Positions 329 to 7,573 of a stretch of 64,000 nt of DNA are shown piece after piece; position 1 is the first letter of the stretch; every line of letters starts with the position of its first letter. Both the position numbers and the translations under genes were made by a program. The notes beneath the pieces are model-generated. The model saw nothing but the letters and a program-made list of their open reading frames with translations, searched no databases and was not told the DNA's origin. This DNA comes from Natronosalvus amylolyticus (lineage in GTDB: Archaea; Halobacteriota; Halobacteria; Halobacteriales; Natrialbaceae). Where the stretch lies: contig NZ_CP101160.1 of assembly GCF_024298845.1 (NCBI RefSeq), positions 1 to 64,000 of the forward strand, read 5' to 3'.

Positions 329-1198
329 ATGATCCCATATACGGTCTGGTCGGAGGCAGGTGGTGTCGGTAAAACGACCTTTGCCGTCAATCTGGCTCGA
401 GCACACGTCAACCGCGGTCAGCGAGTACTGGCGATCGACATGGACCCACAGGACGGTGGGCTCACCCATCACTTCGGCGTCGACGATATGAAAGCAGATG
501 GGGAGGTTGACAATCTTGTCTTACACATGATTGGTCGCCCGCGCGGACCGTTCGAGGATATCGTCCGCACTGCTGAAGGCATCGATATCATCCCGAGCCA
601 TAATATGCTGGGGACGCTCGCTGATCTCCTCAACAAAGCTGCCGACCTCGAGGAAGATACAAATCCGGATCCGGAGTACGTCTTCGAGAAGGAAAAACAG
701 CTTCGTCGGGTACTGATCGAAGCGTCGGTCCCGGAGGAGTACGACGTAATCGTCATCGACCCACCGGCGTCTGAAGGCCAGCACCTGTACAATGCAGTGT
801 ATGCGACGTCGAACCTCTTGATTCCGTTCGAACCGTCCCCGAAGGGCGAGAAAAGCGTCGACGGACTCAGGGAAGTTATTTCAGGTCTCGAATCTGCCCT
901 CGGTGACGTCGACGTTGGCGTACTCGGTGCCGTCCCGAACAAGGTCAAGGGCACGAACATTAATAAAAAGTATATCCAGGCGCTCGAGGACGAAGATATC
1001 CCTGTCGCTCCGATTACGCTGGGCGAACGCGGGTCGATGCTGGGTGACGCCTGGGACAATCAAGTGAGTGCCTACGAATTAGACGAAAATGCGGCCCATC
1101 GTGATCTGCGCGACTACGAGCAACCGACGCTCGAGAAATTCGACGAACTGGCTGCGTTTATCGTCGAGCAATTCGAGTCGCCGGAGGTACCAGCATGA
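329..1198 (+). CDS. parA: ParA family partition ATPase
   Basis: 289-residue ParA/MinD-type ATPase expected to drive segregation of a low-copy replicon. The deviant Walker A motif, SEAGGVGKTT, starts at about residue 8, the A' motif is AIDMDPQDGG, and the Walker B-like segment is VIVIDPPAS. The length is usual for haloarchaeal plasmid ParA proteins. The ATG at 329 is preceded by a TATA-like box about 30 bp upstream, so the mRNA is probably leaderless. The stop overlaps the start of the next gene by 4 bp, so the two are co-transcribed. No ParB with a recognisable HTH follows; the small acidic downstream protein is the likely partner. The family call is secure; which replicon it serves is inferred. 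Confidence 0.93.
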   Translation: MIPYTVWSEAGGVGKTTFAVNLARAHVNRGQRVLAIDMDPQDGGLTHHFGVDDMKADGEVDNLVLHMIGRPRGPFEDIVRTAEGIDIIPSHNMLGTLADLLNKAADLEEDTNPDPEYVFEKEKQLRRVLIEASVPEEYDVIVIDPPASEGQHLYNAVYATSNLLIPFEPSPKGEKSVDGLREVISGLESALGDVDVGVLGAVPNKVKGTNINKKYIQALEDEDIPVAPITLGERGSMLGDAWDNQVSAYELDENAAHRDLRDYEQPTLEKFDELAAFIVEQFESPEVPA

Positions 1199-1617
1199 AA
1201 TCCGGTGCGACAGATCCGTTCGCACAGGACGACGAGGGCACTGACGAAGAAGAGAGTACTGAGACTGGGGAAACGACGCCCGAAGGGACTAGCGATAACG
1301 CATCCCGGAAAGACTCGAGTCATGTGTCCGAAGAGCCGATAAACTCGGCGCCTTCTGGCGGTAATACTGGTCAGTTTGACCGATCAGACTTACCATATAC
1401 ACTGCGCCGTAACAACGTCAAGGACGAACGCGACAGCGTTCATCAACTGTTCGTTCGTGAGGGTACTGACCAACAGGCTCGAGAGGCCGAACGCGAACTC
1501 GAGGATCGACTCGGTGATGTGTACCGGTTGGATGCCCGTGAAGCAATTTACCTGGCTGGGATGCAGAACCTGGACGATGCGGAAGCGGTCCTCCGTGAGT
1601 GGGGAGTCGACATCTAA
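1195..1617 (+). CDS. Small acidic protein, candidate ParA partner
   Basis: 140 residues. The first ~55 are low-complexity, rich in Glu, Asp, Thr and Ser, and look disordered. Residues ~60-140 form a compact charged domain (DLPYTLRRNNVKDERDSV at its start, then an amphipathic helix REAERELEDRL). The ATGA overlap with parA indicates translational coupling, the classic position of a ParB-type adaptor. I do not recognise a named domain. An N-terminal acidic tail with a C-terminal globular domain would suit a protein that binds ParA and a centromere, but DNA binding is not visible. Function is inferred only from position. Confidence 0.7.
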   Translation: MKSGATDPFAQDDEGTDEEESTETGETTPEGTSDNASRKDSSHVSEEPINSAPSGGNTGQFDRSDLPYTLRRNNVKDERDSVHQLFVREGTDQQAREAERELEDRLGDVYRLDAREAIYLAGMQNLDDAEAVLREWGVDI

Positions 1618-1797: not shown

Positions 1798-3771
1798 ATG
1801 TCTTCAGAACTGCTACAATCTGCCACGCTCGAAGTCGAGAATATCGGTGGCATCGATCGCACTGAAGTGGACGTCGAACCCGGGATCACTGTCCTCTCCG
1901 GTCGCAATGCGACGAACCGAACCTCGCTCTTGCAAGCGTTTATGGCGGCACTTGGGAGTGAGCGAGCCTCGTTAAAAGCGGATGCCGAAGCAGGACACGC
2001 CGAACTCGAACTCGAGGGGAAAACGTACATTCGACATCTCGAGCGTGCTGGAAACGAGATTCGAATGGATGGAGAACCGTATCTGGAGGATGCAGAGCTG
2101 GCTGACCTGTTTGCTTTCCTGCTCGAATCAAACGAGGCGCGTAGAACTGTCACGACTCAGGGGGATCTTCGCGAACTCGTCCTTCGGCCGGTCGACACTG
2201 GGGCCATTGAACGGGAGATAGAGCGGTTAAAATCGGAGAAGGACGAGATATCTTCGGAACTCGACAAGCTAGAATCGTTGAAGCGGGAACTCCCCGAACT
2301 CGAACAGGAACGAACTCAACTGGAAGAGAAAATTGCAGGCAAACGTGAGGAACTGTCGTCTGTACAGGAAGCTATCGAGGAAATCGACCACGAAGCGACC
2401 GAGCGATCGGACGCTGAGGACGAACTCGATGAACGATTGGGCGAACTGAGCAATCTGCGTTCATCACTCGAAGACGTGGAGTTCGATATCGAGACTGAAC
2501 GTGAGAGTCTCGAGGCACTTCGAGAGGATCGTGAGGAATTGACGGACGAGAAAACGGAGTTGCCTGCTTCTGACCCTGGTGCGGAAGACGAAATCGACGA
2601 GGAAATCGAAACGCTTCAGTCTCGAGCCAAGTCACTCGACAGGGCGGTTCGTCAGTTGCAGGATATCGTCCAGTTTAACGAGGAAATGCTCGAGGGGACC
2701 CACCCTGAAGTGCGAGAGGCACTCTTGCAAGGCGACGCTGGTGGAGCGGGTGACGAAGTGACGGACCAGTTGTTAGAAAGTGACGATTCGGTGCTTTGTT
2801 GGACCTGTGGGAGCGAAGTCGACCGCACCCAGATCGAGTCGACACTCGAGCAGATGCGGTCGCTACATGCGTCGAAACTCAATCAACAGAAAGATCTCGA
2901 GGAACAGATTCGGGAGCTTCGCTCGCAACGACGAAAACTGGAGTCGACCCGTGAGCGTCGACGGTCGATAGAAACCCGATTGGACGAGATTTCGACGGAG
3001 ATCGTGACCCGTGAGGACCGTCTCGAGTCGTTACAGGACCGCCGAGATGAACTCGAGGGGGAAATTGACGATGTGTCGTCGACTGTCGAGGAACTCGAGG
3101 CGGCAGTTGCCGAGGAAAGCGACGACGACGGGCCACAGATGCTCGAACTGAACAAAGAGGCAAACGATCTCGAATTCACGCTTGGGCGACTCGAACGCGA
3201 GCGAGAATCGGTGAGTGACGATATCGACGAAATTGAAGCATCTCTCGCCCGAGAGGAAACGCTCGAAGATCGCCTGGAGTCCATTCGGGACGAACTCGAA
3301 AATCAGCGAACCCGTATCGAACGCATCGAACGAGAAGCTGTCGAGTCGTTCAACGAGCACATGGCGACGGTCCTCGAGGTACTCGATTACTCGAATATCG
3401 AGCGAATCTGGCTGGAACGCGTCGAACGGACAGTTCGAGAAGGCCGGCGGACGGTCAACCGTGGCGAGTTCGATCTCCACGTGATTCGAAGCGCTGCTGA
3501 CGGCCGAACCTACGAGGATACCATCGAACATCTGAGTGAGAGCGAACGAGAAGTGACGGGCCTGATTTTCGCCCTGGCTGGATACCTCGTCCACGAGGTC
3601 TACGAGGAGTTACCGTTCGTCCTGTTGGACTCTCTCGAGTCGCTCGATTCGGATCGGATTGCCTCACTGGTGGAATACTTCGGTGAGTACTGCGATTACC
3701 TCGTCGTTGCCTTGCTGCCGGAAGACGCTCGAGCACTCGACGACGAACACACTTTCATCGAGTCTATCTGA
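1798..3771 (+). CDS. Archaea-specific SMC-related protein (ASRP/Sph-like) with Rad50-type zinc hook
   Basis: 657 residues from the ATG at 1798; the longer frame from 1699 is unlikely because its added residues are not acidic. The N-terminal segment GRNATNRTS (about residue 38) sits where Walker A should be, but Arg replaces the P-loop Lys and the second and third Gly are Ala and Asn. Residues ~130-550 are a long heptad-rich coiled coil broken at C334-W-T-C337, a CxxC zinc hook as in Rad50. The C-terminal half has LSESER in place of the ABC signature and VLLDSLESL in place of Walker B. This pattern fits the archaea-specific SMC-related family. Its neighbours are ParA and RdfA, so a role in DNA organisation, segregation or cell shape is plausible; ATPase activity is doubtful. 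Confidence 0.85.
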   Translation: MSSELLQSATLEVENIGGIDRTEVDVEPGITVLSGRNATNRTSLLQAFMAALGSERASLKADAEAGHAELELEGKTYIRHLERAGNEIRMDGEPYLEDAELADLFAFLLESNEARRTVTTQGDLRELVLRPVDTGAIEREIERLKSEKDEISSELDKLESLKRELPELEQERTQLEEKIAGKREELSSVQEAIEEIDHEATERSDAEDELDERLGELSNLRSSLEDVEFDIETERESLEALREDREELTDEKTELPASDPGAEDEIDEEIETLQSRAKSLDRAVRQLQDIVQFNEEMLEGTHPEVREALLQGDAGGAGDEVTDQLLESDDSVLCWTCGSEVDRTQIESTLEQMRSLHASKLNQQKDLEEQIRELRSQRRKLESTRERRRSIETRLDEISTEIVTREDRLESLQDRRDELEGEIDDVSSTVEELEAAVAEESDDDGPQMLELNKEANDLEFTLGRLERERESVSDDIDEIEASLAREETLEDRLESIRDELENQRTRIERIEREAVESFNEHMATVLEVLDYSNIERIWLERVERTVREGRRTVNRGEFDLHVIRSAADGRTYEDTIEHLSESEREVTGLIFALAGYLVHEVYEELPFVLLDSLESLDSDRIASLVEYFGEYCDYLVVALLPEDARALDDEHTFIESI

Positions 3772-3930
3772 TAACAACAATCAAACGTACGCCTGTGATG
3801 GGTTGCCTTCATTTGAAACGCGTTGATCTTGGTTTCCTGACTCGTACTCTCGACAGTTGCACGTAACAGGCGTATCTTTGTTATCTGTTTGGGGTCTTTC
3901 GGGATCCAGAGTCGCTGGGTGTCTCTGAAA

Positions 3931-4542
3931 TCACTGGTTACATCCACAGGAACCGTTCTCGAGCAACGTTCCGACGTCGTACTGTTTCCCGCAGTCTTCA
4001 CAGAACACGCGCACGTCGACTCGGACGCGGTGCTCTCCAAGTGTGAGCCGATCGCTCGACTCGAGACCAGCGAGTTTACTTTCCGTAACTGCTGCTGTTC
4101 GTTCTCGAAGCTGTGCGATGGTGTCTGCAGCGTTATCCCTGATGGTCTCGTCGTCTTTGGTTGGAGCCGACGCTTCGCGTATGTTTGTGAGATACGATCG
4201 AATCGCCTGGTAGGTGACGAAATCGCTCGTCAGGGCATCGACGTCGACACCGTCACGTTCGAGTCGCCGTTTCAGTTGTGTCTGTTCGCCACTGGTTCCA
4301 GCGTCACCGTTGAGTACGGCATAGATATGGCTACTGTCTTCAGTCAGTGTATCGACCGCTGCGTCGTGTAGGGCTCGCTCGACGAGGCGTTCGTTGAACT
4401 CGTCGGCGAGCGCTCTGAGGCTCATTCGGTCTTCGTCTCTCGTCCACTTGTGTTCCAGTTCGTCGCCGATCCCCTCGAGGGCGTACTGTTCGATAATGCG
4501 AACAACTTTTGGCCTCGGTCCGGGACCACCATGGGATGACAT
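3931..4542 (-). CDS. rdfA: RdfA-like rod-determining factor
   Basis: 203 residues from the ATG at 4542; an ATG at 4557 is also possible. The N-terminal region runs RPKVVRIIEQYALEGIGDEL, then a WT..ED.MSLRALADEFN segment, then DVDALTSDFVTYQAIRSYL, a layout I recognise from haloarchaeal RdfA, which controls rod versus disk shape. The C-terminus has CEDCGKQYDVGTLL followed by CGC, a probable zinc ribbon. It converges on the SMC-like gene with 159 bp between the stops. From memory, chromosomal rdfA also lies beside an Sph-type SMC-related gene, so this pairing is a conserved association copied onto this replicon. Family assignment is fairly sure; its effect on shape here is inferred. Confidence 0.82.
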   Translation of the reverse strand: MSSHGGPGPRPKVVRIIEQYALEGIGDELEHKWTRDEDRMSLRALADEFNERLVERALHDAAVDTLTEDSSHIYAVLNGDAGTSGEQTQLKRRLERDGVDVDALTSDFVTYQAIRSYLTNIREASAPTKDDETIRDNAADTIAQLRERTAAVTESKLAGLESSDRLTLGEHRVRVDVRVFCEDCGKQYDVGTLLENGSCGCNQ

Positions 4543-4709
4543 TGGATACGTGTACATATCAGTAGTGTGTGGAAAATGGTTTCGATTACACGGGCCTTCT
4601 ATCAGGTCCGATTTTGCCGAACGTGTGGGATGGCTGGAGTCGCTGTGTGTCTCCCCGCTAAAACACACGCCGAAACGGAAACGCGTATAAACTTCACTAC
4701 GATTCTTGT

Positions 4710-4724
4710 TCCGGTATTCCCGGA
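4710..4724. promoter_or_regulatory. Candidate IclR operator copy 1
   Basis: TCCGGTATTCCCGGA is a perfect inverted repeat, TCCGG-N5-CCGGA. It is the most symmetrical of three related sites in this region and lies 294 bp from the regulator start, nearer to rdfA. Confidence 0.65.
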
Positions 4725-4816
4725 CAATATTCGCGGGATTCTTCCCGCAGTAATCAAAAAGGGGTCAAATCTACTCTGAGAACCATTGAAAATTGATTTC
4801 AAGGCTAAACTACTGT

Positions 4817-4831
4817 TCCGGTATTCTCGGA
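4817..4831. promoter_or_regulatory. Candidate IclR operator copy 2
   Basis: TCCGGTATTCTCGGA differs from copy 1 at one position. The flanks are shared too: both copies are preceded by TGT and followed by CA, so the conserved block is longer than the palindrome. Confidence 0.65.
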
Positions 4832-4950
4832 CATATATTGTTCTATGTTACCAAGCAACACTATATAATTGTGGGTGAGTGGAACACGATAATTATGCAG
4901 GGGTGGCCGGATTTCCAAAAAAGGCATATTTTATCATTGATTTTTCTCTG

Positions 4951-4965
4951 TCCGAGATTACCGGA
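4951..4965. promoter_or_regulatory. Candidate IclR operator copy 3, next to the TATA box
   Basis: TCCGAGATTACCGGA is the reverse-strand version of the motif (TCCGGTAATCTCGGA). It ends a few bases before the TATA-like ttttattatg and about 38 bp before the ATG of the IclR-family gene, where a bound protein would block TBP/TFB. This suggests autoregulation. Confidence 0.65.
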
Positions 4966-5003
4966 TAGTTTTATTATGATTGATTTCAAATACCCTGTCA
5001 CGC

Positions 5004-5759
5004 ATGAACGAACCCGTCCCGGTCAAAACAGCCAAAACGACGCTCGATTTCGTCGAGGCAGTCGCTGCTCTCGATGGGGCGACGTTCGCCGAAATAACGG
5101 ACGCAGTAGAGATGCCAAAGAGCACTGCACACGATTATCTCCAGACACTATTGCAAACTGGTTATCTCGTCGAAGACGATGGCGCGTACACGATCAGCAC
5201 CAAATTTCTCGAGTTGGGCGAGTCGCAACGCCAGGGGATGAAAATTTACCAGTCCGCCAGACCCGAAATCGAAAAACTCGCGGAGGAGACTGGCGAGCAC
5301 TCGAGTCTGATGATCGAGGAGAACGGACTGGGCGTCCTCATGCACATTGCAACCGGCGAGAACGCGTTACAGCTCGATGTCTATGCAGGTCAACGGTTCC
5401 CGCTGTCGACCACGGCACCTGGCAAGGCCATCCTGGCACATCTCCCTCGAGAGCGTGTCGAAGCGATTATCGACGAACACGGGTTACCGGCGGTGACGAC
5501 GAACACGATCACGGATCCGGAGGTGCTGTTCGAGGAACTCGAGACGGTTCGCGAACGTGGTTATTCGACCGATCTCGAAGAGCGAGTCGACGGCGTCAAC
5601 ACCGTTTCGGCCCCCATCATCAGCAAGGGGCGTATCCAGGGTGCGATCACCGTCGGTGGGCCGGCCCACCGAATCACCGGCGAGGTGCTCGAGGAGGAAA
5701 TTCCGAGCATGTTGTTGCGGACGGCGAACGTGATTCAGGTCAACATTACGTATTCGTAG
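5004..5759 (+). CDS. IclR family transcriptional regulator
   Basis: 251 residues from the ATG at 5004; an upstream ATG at 4980 lies within or beyond the expected transcription start and is less likely. The N-terminal winged HTH (residues ~8-65) contains LDFVEAVAALDGATFAEITD and a recognition helix around MPKSTAHDYLQTLLQTGYL. The C-terminal IclR effector domain follows, with TAPGKAILAHLP, the usual GxAxLA-type segment, and VDGVNTVSAPI. IclR regulators commonly control aromatic and acyl catabolism, and this one heads the catabolic island, so it is a good candidate for its local regulator. Three palindromes in its upstream region suggest self-control. The effector is unknown. Confidence 0.9.
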   Translation: MNEPVPVKTAKTTLDFVEAVAALDGATFAEITDAVEMPKSTAHDYLQTLLQTGYLVEDDGAYTISTKFLELGESQRQGMKIYQSARPEIEKLAEETGEHSSLMIEENGLGVLMHIATGENALQLDVYAGQRFPLSTTAPGKAILAHLPRERVEAIIDEHGLPAVTTNTITDPEVLFEELETVRERGYSTDLEERVDGVNTVSAPIISKGRIQGAITVGGPAHRITGEVLEEEIPSMLLRTANVIQVNITYS

Positions 5760-5872
5760 TAGCAGGTTGACGGCTACGCGCTCTCATTGTCATCTCATCT
5801 CTCGTCGTTCGAGAGACTGTCGCTGACTGCGTGTTCCCGTAGTATTATGAGGTTCCTCGCCCGAATATGGGT

Positions 5873-7573
5873 ATGTACGATGACGACGAACTCGAGTCGA
5901 TACAGTCGGCTGGCGAAGACTGGGAATCGGAGACGCTCGAGCCGGTACTCGATCGGTTTGGCGAGCGCAAAGACCGCTTTGCGACGATCTCGAACCTCGA
6001 GGTCGACCGGCTGTACACGCCCAACGACGTCGATGAGCTCGATTTCCTCGAGGATCTGGGCTTTCCCGGCGAGGAGCCCTACACTCGCGGCCCCTATCCA
6101 ACGATGTACCGGGGGCGGACGTGGACGATGCGTCAGTTCGCGGGGTTCGGCACTGCAGAGGAGACCAACGAACGCTTTCACTACCTGATTGGGGAGGGCC
6201 AAACTGGTCTTTCGACGGCGTTCGATATGCCGACGCTGATGGGCCTGGATTCTGACGACCCGATGAGCGATGGAGAGGTCGGACAGGAGGGCGTCGCCGT
6301 CGACACCTTGCGGGATATGGAGATTCTGTTCGATGGAATCGACGTTGGCGACGTCTCCACGAGTTTTACTATCAACCCGTCTGCTGCCGTTATTTACGCG
6401 ATGTACGTCGCACTGGCCGACCAGCAAGGCGTCCCCCGTGAACAGATCAACGGGACGCTGCAAAACGACATGTTCAAAGAGTTTATCGCCCAGAAAGAGT
6501 GGGTGATTCCCCCCGAACCGGCGCTCAAACTCGTGACCGACGTCGTCGAATTCTCGACCGAGCAGACGCCGAAGTTTCACCCCATCTCTGTTTCCGGCTA
6601 CCACATCCGCGAAGCCGGGTCGACCGCGATTCAGGAACTCGCGTTCACGCTCGCCGACGGCTTCGGCTACGTCGAGGATGCAATGGACCGCGGCCTCGAG
6701 GTAGACGAGTTCGCCCCGCGACTCTCCTTTTTCTTCAACTGTCACAACTCGTTTTTCGAGGAGATCGCGAAGTTCCGTGCAGCCCGACGCATTTACGCTC
6801 GCGTGATGGACGAGTGGTACGATGCCGAACGAGCCGAATCCAAACGGCTGAAGTTCCACACCCAGACCGCAGGCCAGTCGCTGACAGCCCAGCAGCCAAT
6901 CAACAACGTCGCTCGAGTGACGATGCAGGCGCTGGCGGGTGTGCTCGGAGGCACCCAGTCGCTGCACACGAACAGTTTCGACGAGGCGTTGGCGCTGCCG
7001 AGCGAAAAAGCAGTGCGCGTCGCGTTGCGAACGCAGCAGATCATCGCCGAAGAGTCAGGGGCAGCCGACATCGTCGACCCGCTCGGCGGCTCCTTTGCGG
7101 TCGAATCGCTCACCAACGAAATCGAGCAGGAGGCAATGGCCTACATCGAGGAAATTCTCGAGATGGGCGACGGCTCGGTCCGTGACGGCATCCTCAACGG
7201 GATCGACGACGGCTACTTCCTGCGGGGAATTCAGGAGGCCTCGTATGAGTACCAGGAACGCGTCGAGCGCGAGGAAGAAATCGTTGTGGGCGTCAACAAG
7301 TTCACCATCGACGAAGATACCTCACCTGATATTCTCCACGTCGATGAGAGTGCTCAGGAAACGCAACTCGAGCGCCTCGAGCGAACGAAAGCCGAGCGCG
7401 AAGAGGAGGCGGTCACGGCGGCGCTCGAGGCAGTCGAGTCGGCGATCGAAACCGACGAGAACACCATCCCAGCCATCGTCGAGGCGGTGAAAGCCTATGC
7501 GACGATGGGCGAAATCATGCAGGTGTTCGAAGATAACTACGGCGCCTATAGCGAACAGATCGGTCTAGCCTGA
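5873..7573 (+). CDS. B12-dependent acyl-CoA mutase large subunit, methylmalonyl/isobutyryl-CoA mutase family
   Basis: 566 residues from the ATG at 5873; the ATG at 5867 is also possible, but the TATA-like tattatg near 5843 favours 5873. It is the catalytic TIM-barrel part only, without the cobalamin-binding DxHxxG domain, as in other archaeal two-subunit mutases; the small subunit is not in this window. Family motifs are RGPYPTMYRGRTWTMRQFAG, PISVSGYHIREAG with the catalytic His, and GGTQSLHTNSFDEAL. The residues that bind the methylmalonyl carboxylate are changed: Phe89 replaces Tyr (RQFAG) and Gln207 replaces Arg (FIAQKEW). Phe/Gln is the isobutyryl-CoA mutase pattern. It would link branched C4 acyl-CoA to butyryl-CoA, or else make succinyl-CoA. 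Confidence 0.88.
   Translation: MYDDDELESIQSAGEDWESETLEPVLDRFGERKDRFATISNLEVDRLYTPNDVDELDFLEDLGFPGEEPYTRGPYPTMYRGRTWTMRQFAGFGTAEETNERFHYLIGEGQTGLSTAFDMPTLMGLDSDDPMSDGEVGQEGVAVDTLRDMEILFDGIDVGDVSTSFTINPSAAVIYAMYVALADQQGVPREQINGTLQNDMFKEFIAQKEWVIPPEPALKLVTDVVEFSTEQTPKFHPISVSGYHIREAGSTAIQELAFTLADGFGYVEDAMDRGLEVDEFAPRLSFFFNCHNSFFEEIAKFRAARRIYARVMDEWYDAERAESKRLKFHTQTAGQSLTAQQPINNVARVTMQALAGVLGGTQSLHTNSFDEALALPSEKAVRVALRTQQIIAEESGAADIVDPLGGSFAVESLTNEIEQEAMAYIEEILEMGDGSVRDGILNGIDDGYFLRGIQEASYEYQERVEREEEIVVGVNKFTIDEDTSPDILHVDESAQETQLERLERTKAEREEEAVTAALEAVESAIETDENTIPAIVEAVKAYATMGEIMQVFEDNYGAYSEQIGLA

Follow-up and report, generated by a model that had tools for sequence, protein, structure and literature searches.

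The first 64,000 nucleotides of contig NZ_CP101160.1 of Natronosalvus amylolyticus (positions 1 to 64,000; hereafter the window) contained two convergent genes, sph and rdfA, which code for an archaea-specific SMC-related protein (ASRP/Sph) and rod-determining factor A (RdfA), respectively. The contig, C5, has 417,097 bp and is a secondary replicon of a 4.22 Mb genome whose biggest contig, the chromosome, measures 3.52 Mb. The window pair is a plasmid copy and a new member of an already known kind, both the Sph/RdfA pairing and its plasmid location being known from published synteny and from rdfA-sph2 on pNRC200. The ATPase motifs of the window Sph were altered, and the alteration is a near-invariant form of the whole Sph clade. 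The positions of all features are given in Table 1.

The SMC-like protein with a CxxC zinc hook that had been read from the sequence in the original prediction was confirmed. The window Sph matched the NCBIfam profile for ASRP (NF045487) with 651.7 bits (cut-off 300), residues 15-642 covering the complete profile (1-593 of 593), and its only CxxC was formed by C334 and C337. Rad50 profiles gave at most 63 bits against a cut-off of 700 and, with its altered motifs, the protein does not belong to Rad50. The layout consisted of ABC-type head halves at both ends, an antiparallel coiled coil at about residues 135-529, and the hook midway. The AlphaFold2 model (predicted local distance difference test, pLDDT, 82.5) showed two head halves and two long coil arms with the hook between them; it represents a monomer without nucleotide, has low confidence in the hook region, and gives no direct word on ATP. 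The best Foldseek matches of this model were Rad50 (7zr1_C, E 6.8e-17), MukB, and Smc5/6, while the sole match to the PDB by sequence was a coiled-coil one (HP0958).

A phylogenetic tree of the head domain, built without the motif columns, placed the window Sph among the haloarchaeal Sph proteins, in a subclade of the Natrialbaceae that also holds the proteins of N. hydrolyticus and N. rutilus. The nearest protein was Sph of Natronosalvus hydrolyticus (97% over the head columns), which is also the closest named relative, with 95% identity. Comparison with N. hydrolyticus gave a nonsynonymous rate (dN) of 0.024 and a synonymous rate (dS) of 0.22 for sph (dN/dS ~0.11), and a dN of 0.038 and a dS of 0.28 for rdfA (dN/dS ~0.13); both window genes are under purifying selection. 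The features described for the window were all far above chance.

Alignment with the Rad50 of the same genome upheld the Walker A sequence GRNATNRTS, with Arg for Lys, and the altered Walker B and signature. The Gly-Lys of Walker A (G-K) was replaced by Asn-Arg (N-R), the Walker B stretch read VLLDSLE against LILDE in Rad50, and the region of the switch His read LLPED against VSHDE. A motif scan along the entire window Sph sequence found no canonical GxxxxGK[ST], and the alternative of an intact ATPase that uses another P-loop fails because the protein has none. The motifs had also been described as degenerate, and this part of the prediction was not sustained. N-R took the place of G-K in 152 of 182 distinct aligned homologues, and every one of these 152 N-R proteins had Ser at Walker B +1 together with Glu at +3 (D-S-x-E); the middle positions of the signature were ES in 151 of them and EA in the remaining one. 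Among 156 clade members of the N-R, H-R, and G-R classes, R41, S43, D611, S612, and E614 were 100% conserved and N40 97%, with a median column of 60%, and the hook residues C334 and C337 were also 100% conserved. The chromosomal Sph of the same genome likewise contained GKNATNRTS and DSLE. The altered motifs are not decay, because they are clade-wide and nearly invariant, the chromosomal copy included. The positions of the ASRP ATPase motifs were present, with G-K replaced by N-R and D-E by D-S, and since this replacement is a property of the whole Sph clade it gives no reason to exclude the window Sph from ASRP. The excerpts of PMC9389158, PMC10869688, and PMC11276520 contained no discussion of the Walker A change of Sph.

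The convergent gene had been called an RdfA homologue, and its product matched PF21811 over residues 11-202 (E 1e-70; 238 bits against a gathering score of 27). The two genes are separated by 159 bp. RdfA has a C-terminal Cys4 site (C181/C184/C199/C201), a probable zinc site, whose four cysteines were nearly invariant in 48 homologues. The confident AlphaFold2 model of RdfA (pLDDT 91.1) was helical and ended in this small site. RdfA had no PDB match by sequence, and its model had none by fold at E<=0.001, and therefore the fold offered no functional lead.

RdfA adjoined an ASRP (<=500 bp) in 146 of the 180 distinct ASRP loci having enough flank, with a median gap of 63 bp. The adjacent loci were distributed into rdfA-first tandem (96), sph-first tandem (17), convergent (26), and divergent (7) orientations, and neighbours that stay together whatever their orientation point to a functional link not tied to one operon. 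At the thresholds used, 97 of 116 genomes of the class contained both families, 17 contained neither, 2 had RdfA only, and 0 had ASRP only (Fisher 1.7e-18, a value that ignores relatedness). The original prediction had named such a pairing on chromosomes. It is supported by the 146 loci, which speak against neighbourhoods lacking any association of the two families, and by published synteny of 24 genomes in which 84% of SMC-like proteins adjoin RdfA (PMC10869688). A second rdfA-sph pair was located on the chromosome of this genome (C1:1503784-1506362, tandem, rdfA first). The plasmid pMETEV01 of Methanohalobium evestigatum contained an ASRP followed by RdfA, the latter with 35.7 bits, over the Pfam cut-off, and RdfA of another genome of the M. 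evestigatum clade reached 53.2 bits. The descriptions of RdfA found in the literature excerpts cover haloarchaea only, and, as far as checked, the ASRP-RdfA pairing outside haloarchaea is new. The partnership with RdfA probably began before the ATPase motifs were lost, because RdfA adjoins intact-motif ASRPs in these methanogens.

The motif classes differed between groups of ASRPs. G-K and D-E were present in 8 of 8 aligned non-haloarchaeal ASRPs. A short haloarchaeal class (~600 amino acids, LSEGE signature), of which no published description was found, kept G-K in 10 of 10 proteins and had lost the Walker B Glu in 9 of the 10, mostly to Gly; this class is also paired with an RdfA of its own. 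Seven proteins formed an N-K class with D-A (one with D-S), and the large class had N-R with D-S. In the tree, N-K and N-R proteins formed a clade (support of the joining fork 80/66) that excluded both the short class and the methanogen ASRPs, and the Walker A states required 6 changes, compared with 27.5 with shuffled labels. This distribution suggests a stepwise series from GK+DE through GK+DG and NK+DA to NR+DS.

Table 1. Positions of the sph-rdfA pair, its motifs and neighbours, and related loci (window coordinates unless a contig or locus is named)
Feature	Position	Strand	Evidence or remark
sph, archaea-specific SMC-related protein (ASRP/Sph), 657 amino acids	1798..3771	+	NF045487 match; open frame
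Walker A position G35-R-N-A-T-N40-R41-T-S43, N-R for the canonical G-K	1900..1926	+	Alignment with own-genome Rad50 (GVNGSGKST)
Predicted zinc hook C334-W-T-C337	2797..2808	+	Sole CxxC in Sph
Signature position L579-S-E-S-E583 (LSGGE in Rad50)	3532..3546	+	Alignment
Walker B position D611-S612-L613-E614, +1 catalytic Glu replaced by Ser, clade-specific Glu at +3	3628..3639	+	Alignment
rdfA, rod-determining factor A, 203 amino acids from ATG at 4542	3931..4542	-	PF21811
ParA-family ATPase of the replicon, neighbour and not an obligatory part	329..1198	+	PF13614, E 9e-22
ORF140, open reading frame of 140 amino acids, overlaps the parA end by four bases	1195..1617	+	Kept behind parA in five genera
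AddAB-like pair, divergent from parA-ORF140 across the circular join, Orc1/Cdc6 gene beyond	C5:408496-416770		
Methanogen RdfA beside intact-motif ASRP	L229 (M. evestigatum pMETEV01) 3976-6651; L085 3211-5865		
Short haloarchaeal ASRP class, members	L057, L058, L061, L062, L094, L096-L100		

The gene upstream of the pair that had been noted as ParA was verified as such (Table 1). ORF140, which lies between parA and sph, produced no Pfam or NCBIfam match in profile searches and has a homologue on contig C3; from its position, it may be a ParB-like partner of ParA of a type not yet described in archaea. The secondary contigs C2-C5 each contained one ParA near the first base, and the records were therefore probably rotated to start there. 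The AddAB-like pair comprised a PD-(D/E)XK nuclease and a UvrD-type helicase with a PD-(D/E)XK domain. The parA-ORF140-nuclease-helicase block, found also in Halorhabdus tiamatea pHTIA, is a conserved replication/partition backbone. ParA, ORF140, and Sph occurred together in Natronosalvus, Halorhabdus, Haladaptatus, Halarchaeum, and Halalkalicoccus, with RdfA present as well except in Halalkalicoccus, and the neighbourhoods of Halorhabdus and N. hydrolyticus also held UvrD-type helicase and PD-(D/E)XK nuclease genes. Downstream of the pair, positions 4980-63000 of the window had a catabolic look in profile matches, with an IclR regulator, a methylmalonyl-CoA mutase, a luciferase-like monooxygenase, an acyl-CoA dehydrogenase, two AMP-binding CoA ligases, parts of an ABC transporter, and an FAD-binding oxidoreductase.

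The original prediction further proposed that the pair may be travelling with a ParA system, which was weakly supported. Besides the recurrence in five genera, 5 of the 35 plasmids that held both genes had ParA <=6 kb from Sph (1.4 expected, P 0.011), and the record start was <=10 kb from Sph in 12 of 71 records (5.0 expected, P 0.004), although the records are not independent and related ones inflate both values. ParA was >12 kb away for 28 of the 35 plasmid Sph genes, and its place was taken by a different ParA type in N. halobius and by Orc1/Cdc6 in N. rutilus. For the Orc1/Cdc6 subfamily tested, that of N. rutilus, Sph genes were not enriched in the vicinity. A general linkage of Sph/RdfA to ParA was weakly supported, and most pairs have no ParA nearby; the pattern is read as a modest preference of Sph/RdfA for the replication/partition region of some replicons and not as a fixed ParA module. 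Neither mobility typing nor viral contigs indicated travel of the pair: 120 of the 121 plasmid records with a Sph homologue were non-mobilizable, and no Sph relative was confirmed among IMG/VR viral contigs, on which ground a viral origin was rejected. The location on a replicon was correctly predicted for the window copy, on C5, and is not peculiar to it, given the 121 plasmid records, pNRC200 with rdfA-sph2 included.

Sph is read here as an ATP-locked, non-cycling SMC-type clamp or strut that works with RdfA, a reading to which we assign an even chance. In the predicted fold, the two head halves of Sph make up a nucleotide site of the ABC type. T42/S43, D611, and S580, the likely Mg/ATP ligands, are retained in it, but the residues for hydrolysis have been exchanged (Walker A G-K to N-R, Walker B Glu to Ser, switch His absent). 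In P-loop ATPases, an Arg in place of the Walker A Lys and a missing Walker B Glu usually prevent hydrolysis, and binding is often kept. Sph may bind ATP in this manner and remain in a long-lived head-engaged state. The zinc hook would join the far end, and the result would be a static clamp or strut, bound to DNA or part of a filament, not an ATP-cycling loop extruder. RdfA would be the dedicated partner of Sph, whatever the gene orientation, possibly in a physical complex with it. On C5, the pair in the replication/partition locus probably diversifies the Sph set of the host for shape and recombination or helps in replicon maintenance. The requirement for rod shape and gene conversion is known from the homologues of Haloferax volcanii (PMC10869688, PMC11276520): cells lacking sph3 or rdfA make disks only (PMC10869688), efficient gene conversion requires each of Sph1-4, sph2 and sph4 could not be deleted together, and deletion of sph2 had an effect on shape opposite to that of sph3 (PMC11276520).

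Extended to the whole clade, the proposal is held with somewhat less than even confidence. It states that Sph is a conserved non-hydrolysing SMC branch, whose heads would bind ATP and whose catalysis would have been lost stepwise after an ancestral ASRP-RdfA pairing, giving a static clamp for shape and recombination; the Walker B Glu would apparently have been lost first, next the P-loop Gly, and last the Lys to Arg. Several points weigh against the ATP-locked clamp and its history. No biochemistry of any Sph was found, and some activity can at times remain when Arg stands in for the Walker A Lys. The catalytic acid could also have moved to +3, where E614 is invariant. The switch His was already missing in non-haloarchaeal ASRPs and is therefore not Sph-specific evidence. 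N-K was found on three branches and several deep forks were weakly supported, so the exact N-K/N-R order is not settled. The phenotypes, moreover, come from relatives that disagree, Sph2 and Sph3 being opposite on shape (PMC11276520).

In an unlikely alternative, Sph is a rewired active ATPase that cycles and organises DNA like ClsN, with R41 contacting the phosphates in the way of a Lys and E614 acting as catalytic base. E614 was found in 152 of 152 N-R proteins and was missing from the GK classes, and therefore arose at about the stage at which the +1 Glu disappeared; the likely Mg ligands and the signature Ser are retained, and the predicted model has the SMC-superfamily fold by Foldseek. 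However, the Walker A Lys, P-loop Gly, +1 Glu, signature glycines, and switch His are all unlike Rad50, and changing this Lys to Arg or removing the Walker B Glu is a standard means of blocking hydrolysis in P-loop ATPases. The alteration of every catalytic motif would also fit a vestigial nucleotide site, Sph being a purely structural coiled coil like arcadin-4 or an intermediate filament and its head residues holding the fold or the RdfA interface. This account agrees with the rods obtained on overexpression of Halobacterium Sph1 and with the requirement of Sph3 for rods (PMC10869688), but it is considered improbable, since the altered site, including the likely Mg ligands, is among the most conserved positions, beyond a fold-only expectation, and since gene conversion, which takes place on DNA, involves each of the four Sph proteins (PMC11276520).

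Whichever mechanism applies to the heads, the window copy may have a role of its own. The pair on C5 lies directly behind parA-ORF140, and beyond parA, across the circular join, follow the genes for the nuclease, the helicase, and Orc1/Cdc6. This position, the ParA-ORF140-Sph neighbourhood in five genera, and the enrichments near ParA and the record start are consistent with a module that serves mainly plasmid maintenance with ParA/ORF140, by compaction or partition, and not shape. Such a role is compatible with any head mechanism and is considered unlikely, as the enrichments are modest and drawn from non-independent records, many pairs are chromosomal, most plasmid Sph genes are far from ParA, the tested Orc1/Cdc6 subfamily showed no enrichment, and N. 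halobius and N. rutilus have other genes at the corresponding spot. Far less probable still is a decaying plasmid passenger, to which the unusual motifs alone would point, and these are common to intact chromosomal copies. The low dN/dS of both genes, their full-length frames, and the retained invariant motifs refute decay for the time since the split from N. hydrolyticus.

The ATP-locked clamp bears on how Sph proteins of haloarchaea affect cell shape as well as gene conversion. If the heads cannot hydrolyse ATP, Sph could not be a loop-extruding motor, and a clamp or polymer of static nature would have to account for both phenotypes. The N-R and Ser substitutions seen across the clade provide the exact residues for mutation in a genetically tractable archaeon, and the methanogen RdfA with intact-motif ASRPs provides a natural before/after comparison.

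In comparison with known systems, arcadin-4 is SMC-like and tied to archaeal cell shape, as Sph is (PMC10869688, PMC9389158), but it is grouped with Rad50 and not with ASRP by PMC9389158, and the window Sph matched the arcadin-4 profile NF053563 weakly (32.7 bits against a cut-off of 860). Coalescin ClsN of the Sulfolobales, compared by description, belongs to the ASRP family, has a zinc hook like Sph, and was found where SMC is absent (PMC9389158); the eight aligned non-haloarchaeal ASRPs, ClsN not among them, have intact G-K/D-E, unlike Sph. Rad50, the best Foldseek match, shares the head-coil-hook layout and the zinc hook, whereas its Walker A, signature, Walker B, and switch-His regions differ, and the neighbour of Sph is RdfA and not Mre11. 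The window RdfA is a PF21811 member with a C-terminal Cys4, as is the family of RdfA (HVO_2174), from which it differs in being convergent with its sph. Sph1-4 of Haloferax volcanii and Sph1-2 of Halobacterium salinarum have NF045487, the zinc hook, and the coiled coil in common with the window Sph. Sph2 of pNRC200 (Halobacterium) reads GRNATGRTS, LSESE, and DSLE and has rdfA upstream; the pNRC200 pair is plasmid-borne like the window pair, the former being tandem and the latter convergent.

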